64,000 nucleotides of DNA from Phycisphaerales bacterium (lineage in GTDB: Bacteria > Planctomycetota > Phycisphaerae > Phycisphaerales > UBA5793). This document shows, one piece after another, positions 19,057 through 48,900 of this stretch. The stretch is taken from positions 62,001 through 126,000 of the forward strand of contig JADZAS010000014.1 in NCBI GenBank assembly GCA_020852515.1, read 5' to 3'. Both the position numbers and the translations under genes were made by a program. The notes beneath the pieces are model-generated. The model searched no databases. It saw nothing but the letters and a program-made list of their open reading frames with translations, and was not told where the DNA came from. Numbering within the stretch: the stretch's first letter is position 1; every line of letters begins with the position of its first letter.

Positions 19057-20127
19057 CTAGCGGGTGGAAGCGACGCAACACTGACACCATCCTGTCCCCG
19101 CAGATCGCTGCCTTCGGCGAGTGGCTGTCGGTTTGGCGTCGTATCGTGACTTGCCGCTTTGGATATCATCGACCGCTCGGTCAAACGTCTTGCGCGTCTC
19201 CACGTACATACCGCCGCGTGGGCCATCGTAGTGGCAAGTCCAAGCAGCCATCGCCTGCCCTCGCCTGAGGGCGGCCTGCACCTGCGCGCCGGATGCGGCC
19301 TCGAGTCCCTTCGGGCCGAGCTGGCCAAGTTTGCTGATAATACCTGCTGTGCACCAGTCGCCGGCACCGGCGGCGTCGCGAAAGGCAGTAACGGAGAAGG
19401 CCGGCAAGGTCTTCCACGATCTCTTCCTACCCACGCGGCGACGTGAGTATCGTAAACCAGATGCGCCAAGCGTCTCGATGAGAAGCAGCGGCGTCGTGGC
19501 ATCGAGGATGTCTTCGTTCCCGGCTGTGCGATCAGACGCGACTTTGACAACGTGGGCGACAGCGAGCGCCGCCTTTAGCAAGTGCGGTTCACTTTCGGCG
19601 GATGGTTCGAACACAACAAGCGCGCCGTCCTGGCGCGCGTTTTGGGCGAGCGTCACGGCGCCACGCGAAGTGCGGTCGAAATAAAAGACGTTTGCTTTAG
19701 GCAACCGCTGCGTAAGTTCCGGAACGGTTGCGGCTCGGACAGCCTTGTACCAAGGAAGCCAGTTGCCACAGACCGGACACCTGCGAGAAAACTTGTGCGA
19801 CCGCTCGCCATTACCATTCTCATGGTTGTGCTGAACCACGACCGGCGTGCTGCCGCAACTGCTCAGGGATACGAAGTCGAGCTTGACATCCCAGGATTTG
19901 AGATCCTCGATGATCCGCTTGGATGCGGCATCGCTACGTAGGCGGGCGATCGGGTACGCATCCCAACCAAGCCAGGCCAATGCAGTAAGAACATTGCCGC
20001 AGGTTCCGCCGGCACAGAGAATCGGATCCGACCGTACGTTATCGGCTATCACGACATCTAGGGCGACCAAGCCAGTGCCAACGACGACCGGTTTGGCGGA
20101 GGAGACTGTTCTGCGGTGACGCATCAT
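19057..20127 (-). CDS. PfkB/ribokinase-family carbohydrate or nucleoside kinase
   Basis: A 356-residue protein from the ATG at 20127 (two ATGs in tandem), 7 bases after the stop of the upstream gene. PfkB signatures: N-terminal VVVGTGLVALDVVIAD, the GGTCGNVLTALAWLGW substrate/Gly motif, and the C-terminal anion hole with catalytic Asp in FRDAAGAGDWCTAGI. An unusual insertion carries HKFSRRCPVCGNWLPWYK, a single CxxC that could bind half a zinc site. The family phosphorylates sugars or nucleosides on a hydroxymethyl group. As last gene of the SIS-HAD/PRTase/ATPase module it probably acts on a ribose-like or nucleoside substrate. Base composition is more AT-rich than in the genes at 12-18 kb. 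Confidence 0.82.
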   Translation of the reverse strand: MMRHRRTVSSAKPVVVGTGLVALDVVIADNVRSDPILCAGGTCGNVLTALAWLGWDAYPIARLRSDAASKRIIEDLKSWDVKLDFVSLSSCGSTPVVVQHNHENGNGERSHKFSRRCPVCGNWLPWYKAVRAATVPELTQRLPKANVFYFDRTSRGAVTLAQNARQDGALVVFEPSAESEPHLLKAALAVAHVVKVASDRTAGNEDILDATTPLLLIETLGASGLRYSRRRVGRKRSWKTLPAFSVTAFRDAAGAGDWCTAGIISKLGQLGPKGLEAASGAQVQAALRRGQAMAAWTCHYDGPRGGMYVETRKTFDRAVDDIQSGKSRYDAKPTATRRRQRSAGTGWCQCCVASTR

Positions 20128-20134
20128 CGTTGTC

Positions 20135-21271
20135 CTATCTGTAACATTCCCCGGCGACCCAGATTCCGACGGGCACGTCCTCGATCTGCAAGTTGGCGGG
20201 CATGTCGTAACCTTGGCATTCGATGTGGGCAATGCCGACCTCAACATCGCTCGCTTTCAGTTCGTAAGCAACCAAAAGAACGCCCAGAGACATCAGTTTG
20301 CTGCACATCGCCGAGAGTGCCACCCGACAGCCGCCAATGAGACCCAATACCTGGTGGTAGTGAAGAACGGTTCGTCTGATCTGCCTGTAGACATCGAAGG
20401 GATTCGACTCCGAGGCGTACATGATGTTCCGAGGAGCTAAGCGGACCTCGTCGAAGAGTAGCTTCTGATATTCCATTACGATGTCGTCTCCCCGACGGGG
20501 ATTCCTTGCGGGGGATGGGAGCACAGGGCAGACTTCCGTGGGCTTCACATGCACGTACATACGTTCGAAATGATGCGTGCGGCCCTCCCCCAATACCGGA
20601 ACCCACACAGTCCGCTGGTCCCCTCTGGCCTCGCGGTTGAACGGGCCCTCGAACGGGTGAAGGAACTTGGCCTCCTCATCGATGCCGTGTTCGCGGATAA
20701 GGGTATCAACGCGGGGATCTTCCGAGACGATGACGTGGATGTTAGGTGCGGCCTTTCCGAGCCTCTGCCGATCGTCATGAAAGTAGATCAGACGGCTGAT
20801 AATGGGAAAGTAGACGACGCGAGGCATGGCGCTTACGTCGACGACGATGTCCGTGTAAGAGGCGACGACGTTCTCGTCTGAGAACAGGTTGGCCGCGCTG
20901 CGGTCCGCGATTGAGTCGCGCTTCTCGTTTCGGAACTGCACCGCCTTCGACTCAACGGTCCCGCGGTTGCCAATAATCTGGCCGAAGGCTTCCCAATTCG
21001 CCGTCGCCGCCGCGCGCTGTTCGGGCGAATCAGCCGCAAGCTCGTCCTCGAATTGCAAGGCCACGACGTTGATCGAGCAGTGCTTCGCTGCGGCCGCCAA
21101 GCGGGCCAATCCTCTCGGCGCACGCGGATCGAAGCCCCGTCCAACGATGAACAAGACACGGCGATCCTGTTCGCGAGTGTGAGCGTCCCAGAACTCATCG
21201 AATGTCGCGCCGCGCGTAATGACGTAGTCACGCCAGCGGGGGTCGGTCAGAGCGAGTGCGGGGGTCGTCAT
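20135..21271 (-). CDS. Unknown protein of the SIS-HAD/PRTase/PfkB module
   Basis: A 378-residue protein with no family that I recognise. There is an N-terminal strand-turn RRVLFIVGRGFDPRAPRGL and a strand-rich middle (ASYTDIVVDVSAMPRVVYFP, then ISRLIYFHDD). The C-terminal half is helical and ends with GIAHIECQGYDMPANLQIEDVPVGIW. The alternation of strands and helices suggests an alpha/beta domain, possibly Rossmann-like at the N-terminus, but no catalytic motif can be named. The start overlaps the ATPase stop as ATGA, so its stoichiometry is probably coupled to the ATPase. Confidence 0.75.
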   Translation of the reverse strand: MTTPALALTDPRWRDYVITRGATFDEFWDAHTREQDRRVLFIVGRGFDPRAPRGLARLAAAAKHCSINVVALQFEDELAADSPEQRAAATANWEAFGQIIGNRGTVESKAVQFRNEKRDSIADRSAANLFSDENVVASYTDIVVDVSAMPRVVYFPIISRLIYFHDDRQRLGKAAPNIHVIVSEDPRVDTLIREHGIDEEAKFLHPFEGPFNREARGDQRTVWVPVLGEGRTHHFERMYVHVKPTEVCPVLPSPARNPRRGDDIVMEYQKLLFDEVRLAPRNIMYASESNPFDVYRQIRRTVLHYHQVLGLIGGCRVALSAMCSKLMSLGVLLVAYELKASDVEVGIAHIECQGYDMPANLQIEDVPVGIWVAGECYR

Positions 21272-23199
21272 AGAAGTTCGCCCTCCGACGCGTCCGAATA
21301 GGGGCGGTCAAGCCACTGCATCAGCGTTTTGAGCGGGCGCTCCTTATACAAGCCATAGCCAAGTGGCAGGTCGAAGTGGACACAGAGGAGCCGGTTGAGG
21401 TTGAGCAGCATCCACTTTTCGTGCTTGCAATTGTAATCGAGTTGGGCGACAAGCAGGTTGTGCGAAAGGGCCGACGCGATCGTCTCGCCGAGGCGCACCA
21501 TCGCATGGTTGGCTTGCCCCTTCTTCGCGAGCACCTCATACAGTTGCTCGCGCTCGCTCATGCGGATCGCAGTGCCGGTCACACCTGGGTCGTTCGGCGC
21601 AGTCGGGCGATAGGTGTAGGCTCGGGCAAAGTTGCCGACGGATTCAAGGAATTGTCGCAACGCGCGGCCATGACGTACTCTCTTAGGGATGTCTTCCCAA
21701 AGCTGCCGAGCAAGATCCTTCATGATCGCGTGTTGGCGTTCGGGGGGAAGTGCGAGCGAACGTCGCATAACTTCTGCCGCAGCCGACTCTTCGAAGACCT
21801 CGCCGCCTAGGCCCAGGAACTGCTGAATATTGAGCGACGCGAGCCGAGCGATGCGGCCAGACCCGTAGTAATAGGGAAGGTCGAACTCGCGCGCGAGGAA
21901 CAGCTCGGCGGCACTCGAAAGAGAGGAATCGTCCCTTCGGTCGAGTTCCTCCTCACCGAGTGGCTGCTCGTCAAAGAGCCCTTTCTGTTTCCTGTTGAGC
22001 TCGCGCGCGATCAGTATTTCGAGTTTGCGCCACTCGATGGCGCGCTCCTGTGGTGTGCAGTCTGCGCCTTCACGCAAACGGATCCACTCGCGAAACCGTT
22101 CCTTGCCACCGAATGTGTCTTTCACCCGAGATGAGATGACCCCTGCGATGTCAGCGAAGCGTTGATCCCAGTGGGTGCCGGTGAGCATCTCCTGGACGCA
22201 GCTTTGGAATGAGGTGATTTCTGTGTCGGACGCTTCCGTGATGCGACGATCCGCTACGGCTATGGCGAGTTTCTCGAACTTGTCCCACTTGGCACGCCAA
22301 AAGTTCTCAATCTCTATGGTTGCGCCATAGTCACGTCCCTTCTCAGCACCGGAGGATAGCATCTCCTGAGCGGAGAGGGCCTCGAACCGTTCGGCTATCC
22401 AGACGCCTACGGGGCTACGTGCCTCGATGACAGTACTTACGAGCAGCTCACGTTGAAGGGCCGTAAGCTTATGGATATCATCCATCATGAGGAGCACACG
22501 CTGGGCAATAGGCCTGCCGTCCATCGTGAGATTCCCGGGACCCATCAGATTCAGGCTGTAGAGGGCGTCGTCGCCGGGCAGTGTCTCCGCCTTCAGCGGG
22601 CCTAGGCTGTCCAAGGTCCCGCACAATGTTGCTTCGCGCTGCTCGGCCCACTGGTAGAGTTGACGGCCTTTGCAAGGGAACGTAACCGGTTGGAGAGACG
22701 GTATACCGTTAGATGAGGAGACGATGAGCCGTTGGAGCCCTTCGGGGAACGGCAAGCCCTTGAGGCTAAGCGCACCGCGTAGTACTGCTAGCGTGATCCG
22801 AGCATTGAACAATCCGAAGAACAGGCGATTCCTTCGCGCCTGCTCGATATTCAGGTCCTGCAGCATCGAGTAACCGGGTCCGCAGGTCAGCAGCACTGCG
22901 AGAACTTGCGGTCCGGCGTCGTCGATCGCCTCAAACTCCTTCATTCGCTGAAAAAGCTCCTTGGTCTTCGCGTCGTTGCGGCCCCGGCGGCAAAGAGCAA
23001 GAAGCGACGGGGGCGTGAACATGCGGATGAGGCTCGTCTTTCCTCCGCCCGCGGCGCTACGGATGATGTGGACTGAGTCCCAGAGCGTCGCCTGGGGCAT
23101 TACGTCCAGAATCCCCGGCTCAAAGAGCGTGAGGAACGCATCGTCCGTGTCGATGCTCTCCGAGCGGCGAAGCCGAAATGGGTTTCGTAGCCCTCTCAT
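21268..23199 (-). CDS. P-loop ATPase (AAA+/STAND or ORC-CDC6-like)
   Basis: A 643-residue protein. Walker A is AAGGGKTSLIR (about residues 49-59) and Walker B is VLLMMDDIHKL (near residue 240), with the acidic pair and a following His. A helical region follows; the C-terminal third is probably winged-helix or helical (NHAMVRLGETIASALSHNLL). The N-terminus FLTLFEPGILDV precedes the P-loop as in ORC/CDC6- or STAND-type conflict ATPases. It is likely the sensor or switch of the five-gene module. Both ends overlap neighbours by 4 bases. Sampled base content 28/60 G+C at 22261-22320, well below the flanking genes. Confidence 0.75.
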   Translation of the reverse strand: MRGLRNPFRLRRSESIDTDDAFLTLFEPGILDVMPQATLWDSVHIIRSAAGGGKTSLIRMFTPPSLLALCRRGRNDAKTKELFQRMKEFEAIDDAGPQVLAVLLTCGPGYSMLQDLNIEQARRNRLFFGLFNARITLAVLRGALSLKGLPFPEGLQRLIVSSSNGIPSLQPVTFPCKGRQLYQWAEQREATLCGTLDSLGPLKAETLPGDDALYSLNLMGPGNLTMDGRPIAQRVLLMMDDIHKLTALQRELLVSTVIEARSPVGVWIAERFEALSAQEMLSSGAEKGRDYGATIEIENFWRAKWDKFEKLAIAVADRRITEASDTEITSFQSCVQEMLTGTHWDQRFADIAGVISSRVKDTFGGKERFREWIRLREGADCTPQERAIEWRKLEILIARELNRKQKGLFDEQPLGEEELDRRDDSSLSSAAELFLAREFDLPYYYGSGRIARLASLNIQQFLGLGGEVFEESAAAEVMRRSLALPPERQHAIMKDLARQLWEDIPKRVRHGRALRQFLESVGNFARAYTYRPTAPNDPGVTGTAIRMSEREQLYEVLAKKGQANHAMVRLGETIASALSHNLLVAQLDYNCKHEKWMLLNLNRLLCVHFDLPLGYGLYKERPLKTLMQWLDRPYSDASEGELL

Positions 23200-24314
23200 G
23201 ACATCTCCCGGTGCCGCTGTACGCGGGGGAACAATCCCCGTAAGGGACAGTTCTCGTAATACCAGAGGATGGCCAGCGAGTTGTTCGGCGTGTTATGATG
23301 CAAGACGACGGGAAGGCCGCAGTCGGCAAAGCCGTATCTGGCGTCGGGTGTGTTGCCTTTCTTCATGTGGAGATCGAACACGACTTTGTCCACGTCATCG
23401 TCATAATATTTCTCGATCAGCTTCGTGAATGCGACGGAGTGATCGCCACGGCCGACTCTCATGCGGTTCGGTAGCAGTTGCACGGTCGCGACCTGAGTTC
23501 GGACAACACCAGGGACTTGAGCATTCAGCGCATCGCTTAGGTGCGCAATCGCCTGTTCGGTTGCCATGTAAATGAGGATGATGACTTCGACGCCGGCCGG
23601 ATCGCACAGGCGATGGAGCGGGGTCTTGTCGTCTGCGAGCGCACGAAGAAACTTTGCGACCTTGCCGCTTGCTTCGCCTGACGACTTCTTGGAATAGTAG
23701 CTGCTGCCGCTCGCGGAAAAGTCGTCGAGCAACACGATCGAGCGGAACTTCGGCTCGGATTGCGTTGCGCCGAGGTCGGCGACGTGGGTTTTCAGCTTAT
23801 CCAGTAGCTCGTTGACGCGCTCCTCGGCGAGTTCGTGGGTCTGCCAGATCTGCTCGTGGTTGAGGTCCGGGTTCGCGCGACGGAACGCGTCGATGCGGGC
23901 ACCGTCGCTGAGGCCGAGGAACAGCGTCTGGCGTTGGAGTGTGCGGAATGGAACCGATAAGGCGATACGGCCGACGTAGTGCGCATTGACGCCCTGCTCA
24001 ACGGCGGAGCGGGCAAGCAGGATCGGCCGAACGTGGTCCGGGTAAGCCGTCTCCACGAAGTGGTCCATTTCCTCCGCAGAGCAGAAGACGAGCGATGCTT
24101 TGAGGAAGGCGTAGGCAACGCTGCGGTCTTCCGGGGCAAACTGGTTGAGCCAGAGTGCGAGGCTCTCAAGGAAACGGAGACCCGGAGAGTACTGTTCGTA
24201 CTCATCATACTTGAGCGACGCCATCGCCTGTAAGACCGGACGTTCCTCGGCGACATCACTCGGTTCCCAACCGAGTACCTTGGCAAGCAATTCCTCGGCG
24301 AGCGCATCCTTCAC
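23196..24314 (-). CDS. Phosphoribosyltransferase-like protein
   Basis: A 372-residue protein from the GTG at 24314. That codon overlaps the stop of the SIS-HAD gene as GTGA and has GAAGGGG upstream; the frame continues to 24428 but the extension would overlap the neighbour deeply. Around residues 193-207 it has IVLLDDFSASGSSYYS, matching the PRPP-binding loop of type I PRTases (hydrophobic strand, two acidic residues, SG-S turn). The N-terminal 180 residues are helical and absent from housekeeping PRTases. Active-site acidic residues are kept, so catalysis with PRPP is possible; the base or acceptor is unknown. Confidence 0.75.
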   Translation of the reverse strand: MKDALAEELLAKVLGWEPSDVAEERPVLQAMASLKYDEYEQYSPGLRFLESLALWLNQFAPEDRSVAYAFLKASLVFCSAEEMDHFVETAYPDHVRPILLARSAVEQGVNAHYVGRIALSVPFRTLQRQTLFLGLSDGARIDAFRRANPDLNHEQIWQTHELAEERVNELLDKLKTHVADLGATQSEPKFRSIVLLDDFSASGSSYYSKKSSGEASGKVAKFLRALADDKTPLHRLCDPAGVEVIILIYMATEQAIAHLSDALNAQVPGVVRTQVATVQLLPNRMRVGRGDHSVAFTKLIEKYYDDDVDKVVFDLHMKKGNTPDARYGFADCGLPVVLHHNTPNNSLAILWYYENCPLRGLFPRVQRHREMS

Positions 24315-26257
24315 GGTGTCATCCCCTTCAGGTCGAAACGCAACCCTTGTTTCGTCATCTTTAGGTGGCCGAGGTACCATAGAGTGGCCTGAGAGCCACG
24401 AAAGCCCGCGGGAGCGAGGTTCCAGCATGTTTCGGGATCAGAGGACACTTCATGCACACTCAATCCGTATGGGCTTGCCAAGAGGTGTGCGTCGTTCCCC
24501 GGCCAGCGTCCCCGATCACCGATTCGGAGGACCGCATCCGTATCCGCGATGCGGGCGGTCTTCCGAATGTGTGCTACGACCTCCAGTTTGGATACAGACG
24601 CTGGAACGACGTCAACGGAATGACCTGAGCGCATGACGCGAACAGGGTGCGTTGCGACGCGGTTGGCAATTGCCTCCACGTGCTCGTGAAGTGCCTCAAG
24701 GCTCATGCCGCGAATCAAGTCCAAGGTGATTTGCTTAGGGCGGAGCGTCAACGTGCCTTGTGCCAGCAGGCGATCCGCCCCTAGCGCTCTTGCGACGGGC
24801 ATGAGCTCTTCGCCGACATTCTCCGACCCGTCGGGAACGGCATTAGAGTTAAGACTGAGGATCTGACTCCCATTGTAATAGCCCACGACGACTTGCCGCC
24901 AGTACTTCCGGGGAAGTGCCTCGCGCAGTCGCGTACGGACAGACTTGCCGCGGCCGGTCGCGATGCCGATTGTGATACCGGCTGCAGTCAAATCAGAGAG
25001 AGCCTGCGCAATTGAGCTCGGGAGAGGGCCGAACCGGTGGTCCTCACTGCATAGAGTTCCGTCGTAGTCGAATACAATGGCACCAAAGCGAGCGGCGGAT
25101 AGGTGAGCCAGAGTGGCACCTAAAGCACCGAGCCAAAAGGTCAGACGGTCGTCATCGGTCAGTTGCTCAATCGTTTCCGCGGCCTTTCGTTCAACTGCGC
25201 GAGCCCTCCAAGCAGTTACGCCATTGTTCCTGGAGCGCTCGCGAAATGCATTTGAATGGTAGAGCTTACGACCGAAGGATGGTACGCCGGGCCGCCCAGG
25301 ATCGATTCCGCGGCATCGCCCAGCGGCACTCACCAAGTAGAGCCCGCGCGTCAGCGCAGCAAGATTCGCGAGCCAGCCGCGATGGGGAATACGGACTCGT
25401 TGCGCAGGCACTGACGCAGGCAGGAGCGCGAGGGTTTGAGAGGCGACCGTTTGTTCATCCTGGGATTCCAGAGACAGAACAGCGCTTTCTGCCGCCCGCT
25501 TTGCAAGCCAATGATGTCTTCCGTGAGCAAACTGACGGTAGTCGCAAACCTGAACGTTTCCGAGGGCGGCTTCGGCGAACTTTGATTCAATGTCCACGGC
25601 ACCGGATGCGGTGGCCGGGCCGTGCAGTACGAGCAAGGTACCTCGATGCAGGAGATCGCGTAGCTCGGCATGGGCGGATGTGGAGCGAAGCGACGATTCG
25701 CGTTCGCCCAGCAATTCACGATAGTGCTTGGGAAGATCAGGTCGTCTGCCCGAAGCCGCTGAATACGCGCGAGCGAGCAACACGCAAAACGCGAGAAGCG
25801 AGTTCGTTGCGAGAAAACCATCCTTACCAGCGGGTAAGTCATACGTAATGCAATCCACCATTTTGTACTGAGCGGCCCTTGCAGCAACGCGAGACCTGGC
25901 ATTTCCACAGAGAATCAGGATGCTGTGTGGTTCCTGCTCGGCAAGAAGGCGGACGGCCGCAAGAACATCAGGATTGTTACCGCCAGCGGTGGGCAAGATG
26001 ACGCCGACGCCTGCGCAGAGGGATCGTTGTGCTACCGCCTGAAGGGGCGTCATTGGAAGGGCCGCCTTGCCGGCAAGAATGCCATGCAGGTGCGCCGCGA
26101 AATGCGAAACGCTGAATGACCCACCGGATCCCACGGCCAGTAACGGATGGGGTTGTAGGCGCTCAACAGCGCGCGCAAGATCGTCGACCGCTTGGGTGAG
26201 AGCCCAGGCGTAGGTAGTGGGCAAGGCGTCAATCTCAGTTTCAAAAGGCTTTCCCAA
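24311..26257 (-). CDS. SIS domain - HAD phosphatase fusion
   Basis: A 648-residue two-domain protein. Residues about 20-340 hold a SIS (sugar isomerase) fold with LLAVGSGGSFSVSHFAAHL, VGVILPTAGGNNPDV and a second SIS-like half. Residues about 390-640 are a HAD hydrolase: nucleophile motif FDYDGTL, motif II IATGRGKS, and motif IV RIGDRGRWPGND. It probably binds a phosphosugar and dephosphorylates it or a nucleotide. The start is a TTG at 26257 with GGAG 5 bases upstream; the family begins at this point. First enzyme of the five-gene module, one base after a 29-codon reading frame that bridges it to DUF499. Confidence 0.82.
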   Translation of the reverse strand: MGKPFETEIDALPTTYAWALTQAVDDLARAVERLQPHPLLAVGSGGSFSVSHFAAHLHGILAGKAALPMTPLQAVAQRSLCAGVGVILPTAGGNNPDVLAAVRLLAEQEPHSILILCGNARSRVAARAAQYKMVDCITYDLPAGKDGFLATNSLLAFCVLLARAYSAASGRRPDLPKHYRELLGERESSLRSTSAHAELRDLLHRGTLLVLHGPATASGAVDIESKFAEAALGNVQVCDYRQFAHGRHHWLAKRAAESAVLSLESQDEQTVASQTLALLPASVPAQRVRIPHRGWLANLAALTRGLYLVSAAGRCRGIDPGRPGVPSFGRKLYHSNAFRERSRNNGVTAWRARAVERKAAETIEQLTDDDRLTFWLGALGATLAHLSAARFGAIVFDYDGTLCSEDHRFGPLPSSIAQALSDLTAAGITIGIATGRGKSVRTRLREALPRKYWRQVVVGYYNGSQILSLNSNAVPDGSENVGEELMPVARALGADRLLAQGTLTLRPKQITLDLIRGMSLEALHEHVEAIANRVATHPVRVMRSGHSVDVVPASVSKLEVVAHIRKTARIADTDAVLRIGDRGRWPGNDAHLLASPYGLSVHEVSSDPETCWNLAPAGFRGSQATLWYLGHLKMTKQGLRFDLKGMTP

Positions 26258-26258
26258 T

Positions 26259-26344
26259 TTATCTCCGTGTCGCTAGCAGAAGGCGGTCCTTGAGCGCGAC
26301 GTACCCTGCCTCAAGTCTTTCAAGATGTCCACTCGAAGAAGGAT

Positions 26345-26348
<4 letters not shown>
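26259..26348 (-). CDS. Possible 29-residue coupled microprotein or leader ORF
   Basis: The ATG at 26348 overlaps the DUF499 stop as ATGA. The frame then runs 29 codons (MNPSSSGHLERLEAGYVALK..., ending LLLATRR) to a TAA that stops one base before the TTG start of SIS-HAD. It therefore fills the only sizeable gap in this part of the operon. The middle is amphipathic-helical in character. It may be a real small protein, or simply a device that keeps ribosomes running into the TTG start. No homologue known to me. Confidence 0.4.
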
Positions 26349-29707
<3,359 letters not shown>

Positions 29708-29723
29708 AAGTCAGATCCCATCC

Positions 29724-32540
29724 TCAGAAGAGTTCACGCTGCGATTCAGGTTGCCGCACTCGGGCGGAAAGAGCAAGCTTGGAGAGTTCCGGCCAGGCGA
29801 TCACGAGACTGTTGTAGGCCAGCGCCTCGTCGGCCCATTTCTTGCGCTCGCAGATCGAGTAGAGCCGGTAGGCCAGCTCGCGGGCGGTCTCGCCCATGCC
29901 GCCGAGGCGATTCAGCAGCTTGGCGGCTTCGGACTCGCCCTTGGTCTCCAGCGTCCGAATCAGGTGCTGCACCGTCTCCCAGTGGCGGAGACGGGCGTCG
30001 GTGGCGGGGTCCCAATTATCTGGGAGTTCGTCACGTCGCAGTAATCGCACCTTACCCTTAAGCCCTTTCGTTCGGAGGATTCCGGCCTCTTCGAGTGCGC
30101 TAACAGCCGTGTTCTTCGCCTTGCTCAGGGTCTCAGCGGTCCCGAAAGATTCCTCGTTCATGCCGAACTGCTCGAACCACGCCACCGCCCAACGCGTATC
30201 GGCGTCAAAATCGCCTTCCTGTTCTGTGAGCACTTCGTCAAGGACTTGATTGATGATTCCAAGCGCCGTGCGGACAGTCATTGGTCTGCCATCACTCTCG
30301 ATCACTTTGGCATAGCGCGTGAAAATGGCCATACCCGGACCGATTGCTGCCTGAGCGAGATCCACCGGTGCAATGTTGCCGTGTTGGAGCATTTTGAGAG
30401 CGTTGGGCAGGTTGCCACGTAGGGCCGCTATGACGTCCTTGCGAGTCGCGAGCGGCGCGTCAGCGTGGCGAGGTCGGCAGGCGAGAACGATGTACGATGC
30501 GAGAGCATTCGTTCCCATCGCGACCATACGCCACTGCTGAGACGCTCGGACCGGCCAAGTCCCGGTGATCTGAAACCCGCTCGAGTTCAGCGCCTCAAGC
30601 AGCGTCTCCCAGCCCGTAGTAAGATCGATGCTTGAAGCATGGTCGTCTGTTGCTCCGCTGCTCTCGTCTTCCTGTTTGAATGCATAGTAGACGGTGAGCG
30701 GGAAGCGTGGGTCCATTTTCTCGCGCAGCGCTGTGAACGTACTCCGGAATCCGCTCTCGAAGTGTTGCTTTGCCTTCTCCTTGTCCCCATCAAATCGCTC
30801 TGGAGATGCCGTTAGCTCCTGGGCTTTGGGTACGAGGACTGTGCTGCACAGATCAGAATGAACAGTGCCAATCGATCGTCGAAGCCACACGTAGAAGAAA
30901 TCAGACAGACCAGCGTAACTGATGTTGTCGTAGTAAGGAGGATCAGTGCTGACCAGGATTTTGGAGAGCCCATTCGCGCCGCTGGCGGCGTCTATCTGTC
31001 TTGCGTGACCCGTGCGCTGCGAGCCAGCGGTTAGGACCTGAATACAGCCAGCCACGTACTGACTGCAAGTGTGCCATGCCCCAACGGACTTTCCGAGGAT
31101 GTTGGCCTCGGCAAAGTCCCAGACCATGGGAATGGCCTGCCGGGAGAATAGGTTCATGACCTTCTCGTTCGTGGGACTCCAGCGACAAAGCGAGTTATTG
31201 AAGTCGCAGCAGCGGTCCAGAGCCAACCCCAGGAACGTCGTAACGGTATTCGCATAACTCTTCGCATTGTCAGGCGCCATGCCAACGGCTTCGGCGTCGC
31301 GAATGATGTCGATGGCAACGTGTCCGACGCAGTCGGCGAGAACCGTGATTGCCACGAGCTGTCGAGACGTAAACAGTTGGTTGAAGCGAGTCACACCGTA
31401 GCCGATGCACCAGATGTTTCGCGGATCATGTGCCAGTTCGTCTTGCGGAACATTCGACGGTGCGGGTACGGAAGCGGCATTTACGTGGACTGTATTGATC
31501 GGTACATAGGCACGACCAGCCCGCGAGTCTGCCACAACCGCAAGGAGGGATTCCTTCAGACGGCCCGCCTTCGACTCCTCTTTGATGTGCTTGTCGCCAA
31601 TGGGCTCGCCACTCAGCAAGCATCGGAACTTAGCACCGCGTCCAACTTTGGTGCCTGCGGCGACAGCCGCTCGATTTTCGGGAGGCCCGGTGCGAACATC
31701 AAATCGCCACGTGCCTTGCCCACGGTCAATGACAGGCGAGAGCCACGCAAGCGTTCCCTTCTTACTAGAAAGCCAATATGTGCTGATGAGCGGGACATGC
31801 TTGCCTTGAACAGCGGGATCGGGGCTGGCAACGGTACGCGCCCATATCCATGCGATTACATCTGCTTCGGCGCCGCCGTTCTCCTTGGGTAGGCGCACCT
31901 TCGGGTAAAGATGGCCGATCTTCTCATGGGCGCGGTCACTAATTAGCGCCGCGTAATACCGCACGTCGGCCGCCAATCCATGTGTACCACGCCAGGCATC
32001 TGCACCGCCAATGGTCTCTCGGTCCTCTGGGTTGACTGGGGGATGATTCGTCCAGCGGGGGGCCAGCTCAAGGTTGCACTTATTGAGCAGCACAGCGACT
32101 GGATTCAGGTCGGCGGCGTGCGCCTCTAATCCCAGACGGTTGGCCTCAAGCGGTATCGAGCCCCCACCGGCGAACGGGTCATAGACGGCGGGCAGCCTTC
32201 CGTCGCAGTGCTTCAACATCTCGGCGTGGGCCGCCTCGTAAATCTCCGGCCGATCATGCAGCCGCTTCTCCATCATGCTGCGGAGGATGTCGAAGAGACG
32301 CTCGCGTTCGGCGTTCTGCGCGTCCTCGGTCGGAAAGCGGTCCGGATGCTCGGACGGATCGTCCACCACGGAAGCAAAGAGCACTGCTCTGGCCGTAGGC
32401 AACGGAAGCCGCGCCCACCAGTGGTGGATGCCCTTCGGGTGCGGGCCGATGCCGGGCATCTTGTCGTAGGCCGACGCGTCGTTGATCTCCGGCAACGGCA
32501 GGGCCACTTCGATCAGCTTCTTGCGGTAGGATGCGGTCAC
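29724..32540 (-). CDS. DUF1156 DNA methyltransferase (anti-phage-associated)
   Basis: A 938-residue protein from the GTG at 32540, which forms GTGA with the stop of the membrane-protein gene. The frame continues upstream, but that part is the shadow of the neighbour, and the family begins TASYRKKLIEVALPL. Motifs: HHWWARLPLPTARAVLFAS, the AdoMet motif I VYDPFAGGGSIPLEANRLG, and the catalytic motif IV TDPPYYDNISYAGLSDFFY. DPPY places it among amino-methylases (N6-adenine or N4-cytosine). It probably marks host DNA so that the helicase/ATPase partners attack only unmodified phage DNA. The middle third is less GC-rich than both ends (31/60 at 30661-30720 against 39/60 at 29821-29880). Confidence 0.9.
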   Translation of the reverse strand: MTASYRKKLIEVALPLPEINDASAYDKMPGIGPHPKGIHHWWARLPLPTARAVLFASVVDDPSEHPDRFPTEDAQNAERERLFDILRSMMEKRLHDRPEIYEAAHAEMLKHCDGRLPAVYDPFAGGGSIPLEANRLGLEAHAADLNPVAVLLNKCNLELAPRWTNHPPVNPEDRETIGGADAWRGTHGLAADVRYYAALISDRAHEKIGHLYPKVRLPKENGGAEADVIAWIWARTVASPDPAVQGKHVPLISTYWLSSKKGTLAWLSPVIDRGQGTWRFDVRTGPPENRAAVAAGTKVGRGAKFRCLLSGEPIGDKHIKEESKAGRLKESLLAVVADSRAGRAYVPINTVHVNAASVPAPSNVPQDELAHDPRNIWCIGYGVTRFNQLFTSRQLVAITVLADCVGHVAIDIIRDAEAVGMAPDNAKSYANTVTTFLGLALDRCCDFNNSLCRWSPTNEKVMNLFSRQAIPMVWDFAEANILGKSVGAWHTCSQYVAGCIQVLTAGSQRTGHARQIDAASGANGLSKILVSTDPPYYDNISYAGLSDFFYVWLRRSIGTVHSDLCSTVLVPKAQELTASPERFDGDKEKAKQHFESGFRSTFTALREKMDPRFPLTVYYAFKQEDESSGATDDHASSIDLTTGWETLLEALNSSGFQITGTWPVRASQQWRMVAMGTNALASYIVLACRPRHADAPLATRKDVIAALRGNLPNALKMLQHGNIAPVDLAQAAIGPGMAIFTRYAKVIESDGRPMTVRTALGIINQVLDEVLTEQEGDFDADTRWAVAWFEQFGMNEESFGTAETLSKAKNTAVSALEEAGILRTKGLKGKVRLLRRDELPDNWDPATDARLRHWETVQHLIRTLETKGESEAAKLLNRLGGMGETARELAYRLYSICERKKWADEALAYNSLVIAWPELSKLALSARVRQPESQRELF

Positions 32541-33040
32541 GACTTCGGCTCCTCCGTCGGCGCGGTCGCGACAAGGTGCGTGACCTGCTCCAGTACCCAA
32601 ACGCAGCGCGACAATCGCGCGATGACCAGCAGGATGCCGAGCACGCATCCGTACATGGCCCAAGCTGCCGGTGAGTTCTCCCGGTCGGCAATGAGGGCGA
32701 CAAGCGCCGCTACCGCGGCGATGGCAAGCGCCCGGATCGTGGCCGTGAATACCCGCCAAAGCGTAGGGTAGTGTTTGCTCTTGCGGACAATGTCCAGTCG
32801 CTCGTGACCCGACAGGCCGAGCACGATGGACTCGGCCGTAATGGCGAAGCCGAGCAGAGAGCCGAAGATCGCGGCGAGCGTGCCGTAAATGGCGCTGCGG
32901 CGATCCTCCAAGATGTCGGCCACGTGAGCGTACCCGTTGTAGTATTCGGCCCATACCACGAACGCCACAAAGAACGCAAGCAATGCGACGAGCTCGCATC
33001 CCAAGAAGCAACGCCCCCAATATCCGGCGAATCGCTTCAT
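32537..33040 (-). CDS. Four-helix membrane protein in defence operon
   Basis: A 167-residue protein with four hydrophobic segments: about 13-30 (FLGCELVALLAFFVAFVV), 50-75 (IYGTLAAIFGSLLGFAITAESIVLG in two parts), 98-117 and 125-145. A conserved-looking cytoplasmic loop SGHERLDIVRKSKHYPTLW separates the two hairpins. There is no signal peptide. Start and stop overlap both neighbours by 4 bases. Membrane partners in anti-phage operons often act as pore-forming effectors; that role is only a guess here. Family not recognised. Confidence 0.7.
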   Translation of the reverse strand: MKRFAGYWGRCFLGCELVALLAFFVAFVVWAEYYNGYAHVADILEDRRSAIYGTLAAIFGSLLGFAITAESIVLGLSGHERLDIVRKSKHYPTLWRVFTATIRALAIAAVAALVALIADRENSPAAWAMYGCVLGILLVIARLSRCVWVLEQVTHLVATAPTEEPKS

Positions 33041-33975
33041 TGGGCGACTCCCGCGGCGCGCTGGAGTTCATCGCGCAACTCATGGTGAGCGTTGGCGATG
33101 GCTTCATATGCCGAGTCAGCATCGAGGGCCTTCGAGCGACCGCCCTGGCTCACGATGCGCTTGACGGAGACCAGCTTGTCGCTGAGCAAGTCAACCTCGA
33201 CGACTCGCTCGGTGTGCGTATCGACGCCGGCGACCACGAATCGCTCCGCTTCCTCGCGGAGGTCGGCGCGTCCGAGCAGATTGCGAGCGACGGTTCTGAG
33301 GTTCTGTCGCAAGCGTGATGCCCGTTGCCGATTGGTCCGTAGGACGACCTGAACGAGGTCAGCTTCTCCTGCGTCAGCAGCGGCCTGAAACGCGGCGCCG
33401 AGGCTGGCGTCGGCGTGGGCAATCGTGTCGGCGTAGGAGCGGCGGACCTTCAGGTCGAAGAGTCGCAATCCGCCCAGTCGATTGAGTTCGGCGAGAACGT
33501 CCTGGCGCAGGAGCGGCTCGATCGCGATGTCGGGCGGGATGCCCGGAACCCGTGCAGCCAGATAGGGACCGAGCCGCGTCGGGCGCGGGCCGTAGAAGTT
33601 GAACACGGCGCCGAGGATGTTTCGGGGGAAGAATGCAAGATGCGTCACCTCGGCCAGCCCGGAGTTTGGCGCGAGAGCCAGGTCGCTGAGGTTCCCGGCG
33701 TCCTCGACCTGTGGGAACCCGCCGCGACGGATCGTTCCGAGGCGCATGCACGGCTGCTGCCGACCGTTATCGATCCACGCGCAGAGCGACGTGTTGTCCG
33801 GGCCGGCGACGTATCGGCCGGCGGGTGTGTACGGAAGGCCGTCGATGTGCTGCAGAGCGCCGGCGGCGTCGAAGCGGACAGGCCTTCCCGCATTGTCTTG
33901 GCCGAGATTGACGCGATAGAAAAAGACGCGTCGCTCGACAGTTGTAGGCGCGGGTTGCTGGCGGCGGCGGGCCAT
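33037..33975 (-). CDS. Unknown cytosolic protein paired with the 4-TM protein
   Basis: A 312-residue protein. The ATG at 33975 is preferred over the TTG at 33978; GGGAGG lies 9 bases upstream. The N-terminus RRVFFYRVNLG is followed by an aromatic/Gly strand region (GLPYTPAGRYV, CAWIDNGRQQPCMRLGTIRR). The middle has FFPRNILGAVFNFYGPRPTRLG and the C-terminal half is helical. I do not know the family. Its coupling by a 4-base overlap to a small membrane protein suggests a sensor plus membrane-effector pair inserted between the AlbA-type gene and the methylase. Confidence 0.7.
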   Translation of the reverse strand: MARRRQQPAPTTVERRVFFYRVNLGQDNAGRPVRFDAAGALQHIDGLPYTPAGRYVAGPDNTSLCAWIDNGRQQPCMRLGTIRRGGFPQVEDAGNLSDLALAPNSGLAEVTHLAFFPRNILGAVFNFYGPRPTRLGPYLAARVPGIPPDIAIEPLLRQDVLAELNRLGGLRLFDLKVRRSYADTIAHADASLGAAFQAAADAGEADLVQVVLRTNRQRASRLRQNLRTVARNLLGRADLREEAERFVVAGVDTHTERVVEVDLLSDKLVSVKRIVSQGGRSKALDADSAYEAIANAHHELRDELQRAAGVAQ

Positions 33976-34144
33976 CAAGAAGCCTCCCGGTTGTACGGCG
34001 TGCGCGGGCCGGATTGCGTGGGATTTGGGTCAGATTGGGGGCTTTGGCCCGACTCCTCCACGCAATCGGAGGGGCCGCAAACGCCTGAAAAACACGCATT
34101 TTCGAGGCCGAGGATCGCGATGGATTGCGGGGGAATTGCGTGGA
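33976..34144. promoter_or_regulatory. Intra-operon spacer with three copies of ATTGCGTGG
   Basis: The only long gap inside the first half of the defence operon. ATTGCGTGG occurs at 34013-34021 (+) and 34135-34143 (+), and as its complement CCACGCAAT at 34058-34066. Two copies form an inverted pair 36 bases apart. A clustered 9-mer in a gap between otherwise overlapping genes suggests a protein-binding site and perhaps an internal promoter for the downstream genes. No hexamers could be assigned with confidence. Confidence 0.4.
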
Positions 34145-35785
34145 TCATCGTCTCCCTCCCGCAATCGGCGACTCGCCGCCCGGATACCAGCGGGCCGACC
34201 TGGTGGCCCCTACGGGGTGCGTCTTGCCCTCCCGGCGCAGCTCCTTCAGTAGGTCCTGAACCTGATTGCGCGTCAGGTCGGGAACGACGGCCATCAACTC
34301 GCTGAGCGAACAGCCGCTTTTCCGATTCGAGGTGATGTGACGCAGGAGCCGAGCCTTGCTCTGTTCGCGGATTGACACCCGATTGCGGGCGGCAACTGCG
34401 GACTCGCTTTCGGGCTGATACAGCTCCCGCGCGAGGATCGGCTTACCGCGGCCGATTCGGTCGAGGAGGCCCTTCTCGACCAGGGCCGGCACGTGCTTTT
34501 GCAGATCAGCCGAGAGGCGTTTGCCCTCCGCGACCGCCGACAGTACGAGGAAGTCGTGCGGATCGAGCGTATCAAGCGTCTCCTCGCCGATGCGCTCCAG
34601 GTACTTCAAGAATTTCTCGTCGCGAATCTCGCCGTCGAGGGTGAGCCAGACCTGATTGTCGTCGGAGCGAGAGTAGTCCGGCAGTCGCTTGCCGTGACGG
34701 ACGCACTCCTCGACGATCCGGTCGGCGCCCTGGCCGGAGCGCTCAACCAGGCCGCAACGGGCGAAGGTCTCAGCAATGCGGCGATTGCGGGGCAACTGCT
34801 GGTCGAGGATATTGTCGGGCGTAATGCCGGGTGGAAACCCGCCGGGGCTGACGATCTCGATGTGACGCGGATACTGACGCACGAAGACCGACCCGGCGTG
34901 GCGGTAGTCACGGTGGCTGACGGCATTCAGCAACGCCTCTCGCACCGCGACCTCGCTGAAGGTCGGCACGGGGTGCATGACGAGGCGCTCCTGGAAGTGC
35001 TGCATGTCATTTCGCAGGTTCACCAGCTGCCACACCCGGTCATAAAAGTGGAAGAACCCGTGGCGGAACTCCTCGCGTTGATTCGCCGGACCGGGGCGGG
35101 CGTTCGCCCGGTACTCGAAAATGACCTCGGCCTGCGCGAGAAAGCGGCCGAGCGCTGCGCGCGTCCCGAGCAGGATGAGCGCCGCGTAAGTGATGCCGGC
35201 GGGCAGAATGAGTTCGGCATCCTGCAACAGTGCTTCGACGGGTCGCTTGGCGAGCCCCTTTGAGCCGGAATGCCTGCCCCAGCGGGTTCGGAAGGCCGTT
35301 ATCGCGGCAGGGTCGAGGTCCGCGAGCGTCGCTTCGCGACAGACCTCGGCGGAGAAATCCAGTCCGGCCTCGTCGAAGATGCGCCGGAGCATGTCGGGCG
35401 TCATCGGGGCGAGGTCTTCGCCGGCGCGCATCCAGTACGCACCTTCGACGGCAATCGGTACTCCGATTGGTCGCGACGGCGCGGTAAAGACGACGACGCG
35501 ACCGTCGGCGTGGGCGAGCTCCTGGGCGTCGATGCGAAGCCTGAGCCGTTCGATCAGTCCGGCCTTGGTCCGCTCCAGATCGTTGAAGACGTTGCTGCCG
35601 ACAACCCTGCGGGGGCGTTTGTCCGTCACGCCGAGCACGATGGAGCCGCCGCCCTCATTGGCGAGCGCGGCGCAATACTTGACGAGCTTGTCGAAGTGGA
35701 AGTTGTTCTTGGCCTCCTTGAACTCAAGGTGCTCGTCTTCGCGGCTGGTGAGCCAGTGTTGTAGTTGCTGGAGAGTGACGCTCAT
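34145..35785 (-). CDS. AlbA_2/Schlafen-type ATP-binding protein with C-terminal wHTH
   Basis: A 546-residue protein. The N-terminal AlbA_2 (Schlafen-like) domain reads EDEHLEFKEAKNNFHFDKLVKYCAALANEGGGSIVLGVTD. The middle contains HATPase-c4-like elements (REALLNAVSHRDYRHAGSVF, RNRRIAETFARCGLVERSGQGADRI). The last 70 residues are a winged helix (SLSELMAVVPDLTRNQVQDLLKEL). Such proteins are often named RecG-like or divergent AAA-4; some relatives act in phage defence or tRNA cleavage. The start overlaps the helicase stop as ATGA. Confidence 0.85.
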   Translation of the reverse strand: MSVTLQQLQHWLTSREDEHLEFKEAKNNFHFDKLVKYCAALANEGGGSIVLGVTDKRPRRVVGSNVFNDLERTKAGLIERLRLRIDAQELAHADGRVVVFTAPSRPIGVPIAVEGAYWMRAGEDLAPMTPDMLRRIFDEAGLDFSAEVCREATLADLDPAAITAFRTRWGRHSGSKGLAKRPVEALLQDAELILPAGITYAALILLGTRAALGRFLAQAEVIFEYRANARPGPANQREEFRHGFFHFYDRVWQLVNLRNDMQHFQERLVMHPVPTFSEVAVREALLNAVSHRDYRHAGSVFVRQYPRHIEIVSPGGFPPGITPDNILDQQLPRNRRIAETFARCGLVERSGQGADRIVEECVRHGKRLPDYSRSDDNQVWLTLDGEIRDEKFLKYLERIGEETLDTLDPHDFLVLSAVAEGKRLSADLQKHVPALVEKGLLDRIGRGKPILARELYQPESESAVAARNRVSIREQSKARLLRHITSNRKSGCSLSELMAVVPDLTRNQVQDLLKELRREGKTHPVGATRSARWYPGGESPIAGGRR

Positions 35786-38700
35786 GCCGGCGCCTCCGCT
35801 CCGGCCAAAAGCGCCGACAAGTCGTAATTCACGCTCGTGGCGTTGAAATCCGGCTCCGTCTGGAACGGTTGGCGGACGTACCGCACGTCGGCGGTGTGGT
35901 CCCCATCGATCACGGCGATGGCGAGGATGAACTCGTCGGGCTTGTTCAGCGCCGTGAGGATCTCATTCTTGGTGACGGTGACGGTCTTTGCGCCTTTCGC
36001 GCGCCCCTTGACCTCGATGAACCGCAGCAAGCCCGTGTCGGGAATGGCGGATTCGATGTCGTAGCCGAGATTCTGCGCGCTCACGTCGCGCGGGACGAAG
36101 CCGAGACGACGCTCGATCTCCGTCACGGCCTGCATGGCCAATCGTTCAGAGTGCTCAGTCTCGACGGCGAACGCCGGCGGAATGTCGGCGGTTTCGCCTT
36201 TGAGCGTCCGCACAAGACCGATGGGGAGCACGAGCGCGCCGCCGAGAACGATCGGCGGAAGTGCCGAGAGTTTGCGCTCCTGCTCGATTTCGGCGAGCCG
36301 CCGTTGCAAGCGGGCCGTCAGCTCGTCGGCGCGTTGTCGTGCGAGGCCGGAGTTGAGCTTGGCGTTGACCTTGCCGGCCAGCTCCTGGTCCTTGAGTTGG
36401 GCCGCCCTGTGGTCCCAGTAGTTGATCTCCTTTGTGAGCCGGTCCTGCACGGCGGCCTTGGTCTTGTCGAGCAACTCCTCCTTGCGGCGGCGGACCTCGT
36501 CAAGGTGCTGAGGAACCATGTGAATCGCGGCGTACTCCATCGCGCGTGATTCGAGGTCGCCACGAATCCAGGCCGGCATCGGCATGTCGGCAAGCGCTTT
36601 CGCCTCCTCGTCGGTCGGCGGGCGATAGTCGAGGTATGGTGCCGGTCCGGCATTGACCGCGTCGCCGTCGGCATCGATCTCGACGAACTGCAAACGCTTC
36701 GACACGACGCGCCGGTTGCCGGCGCGGTCGGTTCGTGCGTCCTGGATGGCATGCTCCAGATAAAGCAGCGTGCGCGGCTGCTCGCCGGGATCGATGTCGT
36801 CGATCAGGACGGCGCCGCGCTTGAGCAGGTCGCGGTGCCGCTCGACGATTAGGTCGAGCGTGGCATCCAGCAGCGGATGGCCGGGGCACACGAAAGCGGC
36901 CGGCGGTTTGCCCTGGACGCTGATGAGTCCCTTCTCGAAAGTAATGCGTTCATAGCGGGTGAGCACGGCCTCGCCGCGGCCAATCTGTCGGTCGCGGTTG
37001 CGGATCACGGCCGGTACGTGCTTGATTTCGTAGCGCTTCGGCTCGCGTTCGTGAATCGTCCCGCCGAGCAGCTTGAATGCCTCGATAAAGAAGGCGGCGA
37101 TGAAGTGAGGTTGCAGGCGGCGGGCCTCGGCGCGTTCCATCTCCTGCCGAATCTGCCGAACCTTGGACACGTCCATCGCGTCGTGCGTGAGCGCCCTCCC
37201 CTCGACCAGCTCTTGCAGATGCTGGCGGTCGAGCGCCTTGTCCACGACCTGAAAGAGCCTTGCTCTGATCTCGGGCCGGTCGCCGTAGCGAACGGCCTCC
37301 AGCAGCAGGTCGCGCAACGGGCGATCGTCGAACGTCAGCTCCCCGAGCACGTCGAAGACCTGGCCGCCGAGCGCGCTGCGCTCCTCGTCGAGCTTCTCCA
37401 GCAGCCGGTAATAGACCTCGCCTTCGCGCGTGTCCTTGGCGACCAAGTTCCACAGGTGGCAGACCTCGGTCTGACCGATGCGGTGGATGCGGCCGAAGCG
37501 CTGCTCCAGGCGATTCGGGTTCCACGGCAGGTCGTAATTGACCATCAGGTGCGCGCGCTGGAGGTTGATGCCCTCGCCGGCGGCGTCGGTCGCCACGAGG
37601 ATTTCGACCTCCTTGTCGTGCGTGAAGGCCTCCTGAGACTTGCGGCGCTCCTCGCGGCCGATGCCGCCGTGGATGATGACCACGGCTTCGGGTTTGCCGA
37701 TCAGCGCACCGATTCTTTCTGCAAGATAGTTCAGCGTATCGCGGTGCTCGGTGAAGATGACGAGCTTCCGGCGATGGCCGTGCGCGTCAAACATCTCGGA
37801 GTTGTTCTGCAGCAGCCGGGACAGTTCATCCCACTTGCGGTCCGTGCCCGATTGGCGGACGCGAAGCGCTGCCCGCTCCAAGTCTTGCAACTGTGCGATC
37901 TCGGCCTTGAGTTCCGCAATCGTGCGGGCGGCGGACGCCTGATCGACCACGCGCTCTTCGGTGTCCTCGACCTCCTTGTCCGGGGCGTCGTCAAGGTCGT
38001 CCATCTCATCGGCAGTGAGCGCCGGCAGTCCGGCCGTCAGGTCGATGCCGGCCTCCGCGCCGCGCTTGAGCAACTGCTCTTCGCGGAGGCGCTTCTCCAG
38101 CCGCTCACGCCGACGGCGGAGCGATTGATAGATGGCCTCGGGAGAGGAAGCGAGGCGGCGCTGCAGAATCGTGAGCGCGAATCCGACCGTGCCCTTCCGG
38201 CCTTCGTTCTCCAGCGCCTCGGCGCGGTTGAACTCCTCGCGGACATAGTCGGTGACCTGCTTGTAGAGGTCGGCCTCGGCGTCCGACAAGGCATAGTTCA
38301 CCGTGTAGGCGCGGCGCTCGGGGAACAGGGGCGTGCCGTCGAACTTGAGCAACTGCTCCTTGACCAGGCGGCGCATCATGTCCGTCGCGTCGCTCATGTG
38401 AACGCCGTCACGGAACTTGCCCTCGAAGCGGTCGCCGTCCAGGAGCGCCATGAAGAGCTGGAAGTCGGCTTCCTTTCCGTTGTGCGGCGTGGCCGTCAGC
38501 AACAGGAAGTGCCGCGTCAACGGCGAAAGGGCCTGACCCAATCGGTATCGCTTCGTGTACTTGACCTCGTTGCCGAAATAGGTCGCGCTGAGCTTGTGGG
38601 CTTCGTCGCACACGATCAGATCCCAGTCGGTCAGATTGAGCTTTGACTGGGTGTCCTCGTCGCGGCTCAGCTTGTCGAGCCGGCAGATGGCCAGCGGGGT

Positions 38701-48586: not shown

Positions 48587-48900
48587 CCGCGCAACGTGAG
48601 ACTGCGGACGAACGCCATCGCGGCGTCCAGCGAGAGCTGCCCCTGCCCGCTGGCCGGAAACGCGGCCTGCAAACGATGCTCCATCTCCGCCGCCGCGATC
48701 TCCATCGCCGCGCTCGCCGCCTGGGCCGGGTCGAGTTCCGGCTTCGTCGCCGCCAACTCGTGCTTCAGTTCCTCGTGCCGGGCCTTGAGCGCCGTCGCCA
48801 GCGTCTCGGTCGCCGCCAGCAGCATCCGGCCGCGGCGGAGTTGCTCGTGCAGCGGCGGCGCGCTCTGCAGGAGTTCGAGGATGATCGTCTTGTACGGCAT
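48583..48900 (-). CDS. Small helical protein coupled to the giant methylase/helicase
   Basis: A 105-residue, almost entirely helical protein (TIILELLQSAPPLHEQLRRGRMLLAATETLATALKARHEEL; AASAAMEIAAAEMEHRLQAAF). AAGGAG lies 7 bases before the ATG at 48900. Helical small proteins directly upstream of the giant helicase are a common arrangement in plasmid/ICE backbones. It ends in TGA overlapping the presumed CTG start of the next gene, suggesting translational coupling. Function unknown. Confidence 0.75.
   Translation of the reverse strand: MPYKTIILELLQSAPPLHEQLRRGRMLLAATETLATALKARHEELKHELAATKPELDPAQAASAAMEIAAAEMEHRLQAAFPASGQGQLSLDAAMAFVRSLTLRG

Follow-up and report, generated by a model that had tools for sequence, protein, structure and literature searches.

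Here, we describe a five-gene module of a Phycisphaerales bacterium that, at about even odds (a probability of roughly 0.5), is a mobile and self-contained defence (conflict) module built from two exchangeable units and working through phosphoribosyl chemistry. The module lies in a window of 64,000 nucleotides (contig JADZAS010000014.1, positions 62,001 to 126,000), where five open reading frames (ORFs), all on the minus strand, occupy positions 19057-26257. They encode a fusion of a SIS isomerase with a HAD phosphatase (SIS-HAD), a phosphoribosyltransferase (PRTase), an ORC-CDC6-like ATPase (ORC), a protein with two CARF domains, and a PfkB-family kinase. The original prediction, made from the sequence of the window alone, had placed five minus-strand genes with short overlaps or a 7-base gap at this position, and the window sequence confirms it. 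The junctions are GTGA for SIS-HAD/PRTase and ATGA for both PRTase/ORC and ORC/CARF, while 7 bases separate CARF from PfkB. This gap results from setting the likely PfkB start at ATG 20127 rather than at 20247; the likely PRTase start is GTG 24314 rather than 24428 (both from homologue alignments).

A recurrent gene set made of two units

We scanned 84,980 species with an alignment of the PRTase, obtained 296 relatives, and examined the best 80 of the 296 together with plasmid and viral loci. We counted the PRTase in 94 loci, ORC in 93, SIS-HAD in 91, CARF in 85, and PfkB in 74; missing genes are mostly explained by contig ends. Wherever at least 2.5 kb was available on both sides of the PRTase that served as bait, SIS-HAD, PRTase, ORC, and CARF were found together (56 of 56 loci). 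Such contiguous recurrence shows that the gene set is not due to chance. The same association appears with CARF as bait, which retrieved the PRTase in 17 of 17 plasmid records, and two CARF copies from whole genomes, found without the PRTase bait, sit in complete modules. CARF is single-copy in 48 of 50 whole genomes carrying the module, the two exceptions being a second, complete module and a split or overlapping call. The commonest gene order across loci is SIS-HAD, PRTase, ORC, CARF, PfkB. The earlier claim that the five families form one module therefore held, with the core four together across many phyla; the opposite outcome that it had considered, of five genes rarely occurring together, was not found. 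Catalytic motifs are 95-100% conserved in all five families (60 to 85 homologues per family), and the proteins therefore look active rather than decayed.

The module is hosted by at least 15 phyla, including Archaea. Its hosts belong to Pseudomonadota, Bacteroidota, Planctomycetota, Acidobacteriota, Chloroflexota, Armatimonadota, Nitrospirota, Cyanobacteriota, Bacillota, Actinomycetota, Myxococcota, and Verrucomicrobiota, and further include a Kaiserbacterium and two archaea. Within the class of the window's bacterium, the full-length module is present in 2 of 397 genomes, and it was not found in three genomes of the same genus. The module is also present on conjugative plasmids. Sequences from Acidobacteriota, Chloroflexota, and Pseudomonadota are joined in one strongly supported clade, while the window's PRTase, ORC, and CARF are closest to those of Planctomycetota. 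Horizontal mobility is the best reading of this sporadic distribution, the conjugative plasmids, and the cross-phylum clade. A phage-borne gene set was rejected: the CARF protein had zero matches among 50,697 phage records, and just four IMG/VR contigs classed as viral (loci L102, L103, L104, and L105) carry the module. Because CARF is unmatched in the phage records, these four contigs may be proviruses or misassigned host DNA.

We find that the five families fall into two co-evolving groups. Distance-matrix correlations (r) are 0.92 to 0.96 within the PRTase, ORC, and CARF triple and 0.93 between SIS-HAD and PfkB, as against 0.58 to 0.65 between the triple and the pair; in permutations of the four-family set, r never rose above 0.13. 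Two loci (L016 and L021) share 54-59% identity in the triple and just 24-30% in SIS-HAD and PfkB. Furthermore, two plasmids carry a second triple, whole or in part, beside a single SIS-HAD/PfkB pair, and the pair lies on the opposite strand in three loci. The window's own SIS-HAD is an outlier, with 40% identity to that of locus L022 compared with 64 to 75% for the other four genes.

A second PRTase-ORC-CARF triple adjoins the complete module at L015:12408-16568 and at L020:1-2079, where its end only is visible. At L015, a patatin-like phospholipase gene separates this triple from the complete module, and its PRTase groups in a divergent clade with that of L018 and three viral contigs.

The most frequent linked extra gene encodes NADAR (PF08719), found in 24 of 91 loci by clustering and in one more (L101) by profile. 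All intact loci without PfkB have NADAR adjoining SIS-HAD, and the PRTases of these loci form a single clade, with full support and members in three phyla. Because of the co-evolving groups, the duplicated triple, and the presence of NADAR where PfkB is absent, we distinguish two units. Unit A is a sugar- or nucleoside-phosphate unit that comes in kinase, N-glycosidase, and combined types, and unit B is a PRTase-ATPase-CARF assembly. What had been proposed as a five-gene module is thus indeed a conserved module, although one of two co-evolving units instead of a flat operon, with a sixth family, NADAR, in many of its versions.

Component proteins and their predicted folds

The PRTase is a member of the PRTase-CE family (PF24390; 2.6e-19, 70.5 bits against a curated cut-off of 27). 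Its AlphaFold model is of high confidence (predicted local distance difference test, pLDDT, 94), and all 50 structural matches listed by VIA-align are PRT-fold proteins, the best being a uracil PRTase (UPRTase; Z 9.2). D197 and D198 are invariant in 85 homologues and, together with S202-G203, are 99-100% conserved, in keeping with a type I fold and the acidic pair of a phosphoribosyl pyrophosphate (PRPP) loop. The loop itself, DDFSASGSS, departs from the classic motif. Proteins in four genomes of the same class (L166-L169; G171:C28, G272:C127, G130:C17, and G038:C1) match the C-terminal part of the PRTase profile only, with E values of 4e-5 to 2e-9, and by sequence appear to be a more distant PRTase-CE branch.

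The ATPase is likewise a family member (PF24389, ORC-CDC6-like; 8.6e-18, 64.8 bits against a cut-off of 27). Across 83 homologues, its Walker A (G51-x-G53-K54-T55) and the acidic residue of its Walker B (D240) show 95-100% conservation, with G51, G53, K54, and D240 invariant. In SIS-HAD, the HAD half matches PF08282 in Pfam at 2e-9 (subtype HAD-IIB). The SIS half (residues 17-322) was detected solely by a family profile against PDB chains, which matched the GlmS-like isomerases 8eol/3hba at E 3e-8. Among 84 homologues, conservation is 95-100% for DxD, K557, and GDxxxxxND and likewise for the GSGGS loop of the SIS half. PfkB matches PF00294 at 1.5e-12, and its GAGD motif (D297) is invariant in 60 homologues; the best subfamily matches are fructokinase and ribose-1-phosphate kinase, both far under their cut-offs. 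These profile matches and conserved motifs uphold the four identities first read from the sequence, namely SIS-HAD, a protein with a PRPP loop, an ATPase with Walker A and B, and PfkB.

The remaining 378-residue protein, previously called unknown, has a known family. It matches PADLOC CARF6 (PDLC01910) at E 2.4e-106, and its AlphaFold model (pLDDT 93; predicted template modelling score, pTM, 0.93) has the CARF fold. The 27 best VIA-align matches of this model are all CARF proteins, with Z from 7.9 to 15.9, and the first different fold follows at Z 7.8. Can1 (6sce) ranks at the top (Z 15.9, root-mean-square deviation 3.3 over 234 residues), followed by Csm6, Card1, Csx1-Crn2, Cam1, Can2, Csa3, Sso2081, and Cad1. 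With Foldseek alone, C-terminal domains of transporters topped the list at low TM-scores, an ambiguity that VIA-align resolved. Sequence searches of the PDB with the CARF and ORC proteins returned nothing useful, and the CARF identity rests on PADLOC and on structure comparison, by which the modelled protein is a member of the CARF superfamily. The chain contains two CARF domains and no effector domain. Its loop residues G46, D48, R50, D145, S147, and K325 are 96-100% conserved, and the conservation of G46, D48, R50, S147, and K325 supports a predicted ligand site.

Genomic neighbourhood

In other hosts, the immediate neighbours of the module include GajB (Gabija), a DrmD-type helicase, HsdR, HsdM, a type IIG enzyme, and a Mokosh-type protein. 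BrxL, AbiEii, GmrSD, AbiC, Fic, integrases, and relaxases are also among the immediate neighbours. Defence genes exceed those among random genes: 116 neighbours matched 219 PADLOC families, compared with 21, mostly housekeeping, for 116 random genes. As PADLOC models are redundant and the control comes from one class, these numbers describe enrichment in kind, not a rate or a protein count. Defence neighbours had been named at the outset as support for the prediction, and they are present, with Hma in the window, Gabija, DrmD-type, BrxL, AbiE, and others elsewhere, and mobility genes in addition. An ordinary sugar-metabolism operon, the case that would have spoken against the original prediction, was rejected, since no such neighbour recurs among 777 flank proteins or in the Pfam tally of immediate neighbours.

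In the window, a complete Hma / Type-1 BR operon lies upstream on the same strand, and the module follows it after 87 bases (Table 1). This DUF499-centred system, whose naming and relationship to BREX follow PMC12839542, resembles the module in that both have ORC/Cdc6-type AAA ATPases (PMC12839542); however, HmaB and HmaC adjoin none of the other module loci. We rejected the module as a part of Hma, as HmaB and HmaC are without homologues in the flanks of other loci and HmaA has two distant helicases only.

Table 1. Coordinates of the module and of the adjoining Hma operon in the window.
Feature	Position	Strand	Basis or remark
SIS-HAD fusion, unit A	24311..26257	-	TTG start; N-terminal SIS phosphosugar isomerase and C-terminal HAD-IIB (Cof/SPP-type) phosphatase
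Type I phosphoribosyltransferase, PRTase-CE family, unit B	23196..24314	-	PF24390; GTG start (refined)
ORC-CDC6-like AAA ATPase, candidate invader sensor, unit B	21268..23199	-	PF24389
Tandem-CARF protein, PADLOC CARF6, candidate nucleotide receptor, unit B	20135..21271	-	PDLC01910 and AlphaFold model
PfkB-family sugar/nucleoside kinase, unit A	19057..20127	-	PF00294; ATG start (refined)
Complete Hma / Type-1 BR operon (context, outside the module)	26345..39294	-	PADLOC and Pfam
HmaC, N-terminal HEPN_Swt1	26345-29707	-	PADLOC E 0
HmaB	29724-33122	-	PADLOC E 0
AlbA_2/Schlafen-like gene	34145-35785	-	Pfam
HmaA	35782-39294	-	PADLOC E 0

The AlbA_2/Schlafen-like protein encoded between HmaB and HmaA has an ATP-binding RecG C-terminal-type domain and is an addition to the core Hma set. 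A 29-codon minus-strand ORF (26258-26348; MNPSSSGHLERLEAGYVALKDRLLLATRR) starts within an ATGA that overlaps the stop of HmaC and terminates immediately ahead of the SIS-HAD start. It is possibly the remnant of a gene that once followed HmaC, marking the module junction. Further along, a 1898-residue protein (43322-49018, minus) combines a methylase-like stretch with SNF2-helicase motifs and weakly matches mad2, DrmD, and BrxHI in PADLOC, and a separate DNA methylase domain is encoded at 55587-56381 (minus). The defence island of the window seems to extend to about 56 kb. A 930-residue protein kinase-TPR protein (60703-63495, plus) has PADLOC matches to PD-T4-6-type kinases, which are common outside defence too.

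A possible nucleotide-based defence and its alternatives

In the mechanism that we propose, unit B (PRTase, ATPase, and tandem CARF) would work as one assembly, with the ORC-CDC6-like ATPase sensing the invader and driving the unit. With PRPP, the PRTase would form a phosphoribosyl compound or break one down, and CARF would bind the resulting nucleotide and gate the assembly. Unit A, which consists of SIS-HAD with PfkB and/or NADAR, would make the sugar- or nucleoside-phosphate substrate or clear the product. The output might be a signal nucleotide, or a toxic or abnormal nucleotide that halts phage or cell; as judged from sequence, a signal, a toxin, and plain depletion of PRPP would look alike.

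CARF domains of known function read cyclic oligoadenylates from Cas10, and immune systems known to work through nucleotides depend on cyclases or on signals derived from NAD. Among 50 module-bearing genomes, some of them incomplete, Cas10 (judged by PF22335) was above its cut-off in 10 and a cyclase (judged by the SMODS Pfam model) in 11; 31 had neither. Cas10 was not above cut-off in the window's own genome, and its SMODS gene lies on another contig (C16, the module being on C14) rather than with the module. Because CARF is as conserved as the PRTase and co-evolves with it, and because 31 of 50 genomes are without Cas10 and SMODS, the module itself probably yields the CARF ligand, as a product or as an intermediate. 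A bolder extension, which we hold to be possible yet doubtful, is a new type of immunity: a PRTase-isomerase-phosphatase-kinase pathway without a cyclase would make a non-cyclic phosphoribosyl or altered-sugar nucleotide, to be read by a Cas10-independent tandem CARF. If so, CARF would serve as a receptor for nucleotide signals in general, and the different signal chemistries (a kinase type and an N-glycosidase type) would be encoded by the two exchangeable units.

Alternatively, the module might kill its host by depleting PRPP or nucleotides, with ORC activating the PRTase as a toxic effector (a role proposed for the PRTase of ShosTA), SIS-HAD, PfkB, and NADAR providing the antidote by removing the toxic product, and CARF acting merely as a gate. 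In ShosTA (DprA and PRTase), a PRTase and its partner, a DNA-binding sensor of the DprA type, give protection against T7 and lambda, and retron PRTases likewise have a probable DNA-sensing partner (PMC9122126). In addition, NADARs are antitoxins that remove ADP-ribose from guanine by hydrolysis (PMC11125620), NADAR is found in all intact loci that have no PfkB, and unit A evolves apart from unit B. Against this, an antidote of four or five enzymes would be exceptionally complex, SIS-HAD is no less obligatory than the PRTase (56 of 56 loci), and most loci are without NADAR; we regard this suicide mechanism as unlikely. The module further differs from ShosTA and retrons in its partner, which is an ORC-CDC6-like ATPase in 93 of 94 loci and not DprA or a reverse transcriptase, and in having CARF, SIS-HAD, and PfkB/NADAR as well. 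The likeness of PRTase-CE to these PRTases is one of fold class and of pairing with a probable DNA-sensing partner. From DarT-NADAR toxin-antitoxin pairs, which share with the module NADAR as an N-glycosidase of ADP-ribosyl-guanine (PMC11125620), it differs in that NADAR pairs with SIS-HAD, and no DarT/ART gene is apparent beside it.

Still less probable, in our view, is a specialised metabolic or antibiotic-nucleoside pathway (synthesis, salvage, or self-protection) without phage defence, in which CARF would be an allosteric nucleotide sensor. All enzymes are of the sugar or nucleotide type, and a distant PRTase-CE homologue without ORC or CARF, on a Streptomyces scopuliridis plasmid (NZ_CP109092.1; L019:8995-9966), belongs to an apparent biosynthetic cluster that also holds prs, pgi, dioxygenases, and one gene each from the inositol-monophosphatase and PEP-mutase families. 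This protein may genuinely act as a phosphoribosyltransferase in biosynthesis and may offer a model for the reaction. However, no biosynthetic, transport, or sugar-metabolism neighbour recurs in 91 loci, where the recurrent linked family is NADAR. Defence and mobility genes among the neighbours, the patchy distribution, and the conjugative plasmids also argue against such a pathway.

The weakest alternative, and a rather improbable one, is an accessory of cyclic-oligonucleotide immunity, in which CARF would take a cyclic oligoadenylate from Cas10 or a CD-NTase and switch on the PRTase/ATPase, or would itself be a ring nuclease: the CARF fold matches proteins that bind cyclic tetra-adenylate (cA4) and ring nucleases, PADLOC labels related PRTases 'PRTase_III-A', type III-A CARF-HAD effectors dephosphorylate dATP, ATP, and IMP (PMC12715507), and the window's genome has its SMODS gene, but neither Cas10 nor a cyclase was seen in module loci, and 40 of the 50 genomes, the window's included, are without Cas10 above cut-off. 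The same Cas10 and SMODS counts disfavour a simple type III or CBASS accessory. The CARF-HAD (Chp) effectors themselves also link a CARF receptor to a HAD phosphatase in phage defence (PMC12715507); Chp, however, is one membrane protein switched by cA4 made by Cas10, whereas the module has its HAD fused to a SIS isomerase and CARF as a separate protein. The module CARF has the same fold as the CARF proteins of type III CRISPR (Can1, Csm6, Card1, and Cam1, and the ring nuclease Sso2081), and Can1 likewise has two CARF domains per chain. Unlike these, it has no fused nuclease, deaminase, or membrane effector, most module genomes are without Cas10, and its partners are a PRTase, an ATPase, and sugar-phosphate enzymes.

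Several points weigh against a mobile defence module of two exchangeable units. Many loci adjoin ordinary genes, and the defence neighbours are tallies, not per-protein counts, set against one bacterial class. Neither a nuclease nor a membrane or other obvious killing domain was seen among the module proteins. The anti-phage role is predicted from genomic context, as are the substrates and the reaction direction of the enzymes from their families, and the PRTase-CE family may also serve ordinary biosynthesis, given the Streptomyces cluster. Finally, the absence of Cas10 and SMODS was judged from two Pfam models in partly incomplete genomes, with other cyclase families left unsearched.

Parts of the module were probably noted in earlier computational surveys. 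Three of its families already have names, PRTase-CE and ORC-CDC6-like in Pfam and CARF6 in PADLOC, and the neighbouring accessions PF24389 and PF24390 hint that the ATPase and PRTase families were described together. The Ter-dependent stress system, a biosynthetic module with PRTases and a predicted nucleoside-derived compound in phage and plasmid immunity, offers a further likeness and differs in its gene set, in a second-hand comparison based on PMC5512222. Literature searches returned no paper naming PRTase-CE or PADLOC CARF6 and none that describes the set of five genes, its division into two units, or NADAR as an alternative, or that reports an experiment on the set, with the limit that CARF and conflict-system surveys (Makarova 2020; Burroughs and Aravind 2015, 2020; the Ter paper) may have predicted them. 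The label 'undescribed' in the original prediction thus holds only in part, failing for these three named families. We class the module with nucleotide-based defence, as a variant that has a real chance of being a new kind.

In the module, a candidate nucleotide receptor of the CRISPR type is linked to ordinary enzymes of sugar and nucleotide salvage, without the usual signal maker. The module is directly testable, being a small set with clear catalytic residues that also occurs in cultured strains, for example of Chitinophaga, Tautonia, or Sulfitobacter. If the module protects cells, it would point to a signal or toxin nucleotide still to be characterised and would indicate what is detected by CARF domains beyond CRISPR.

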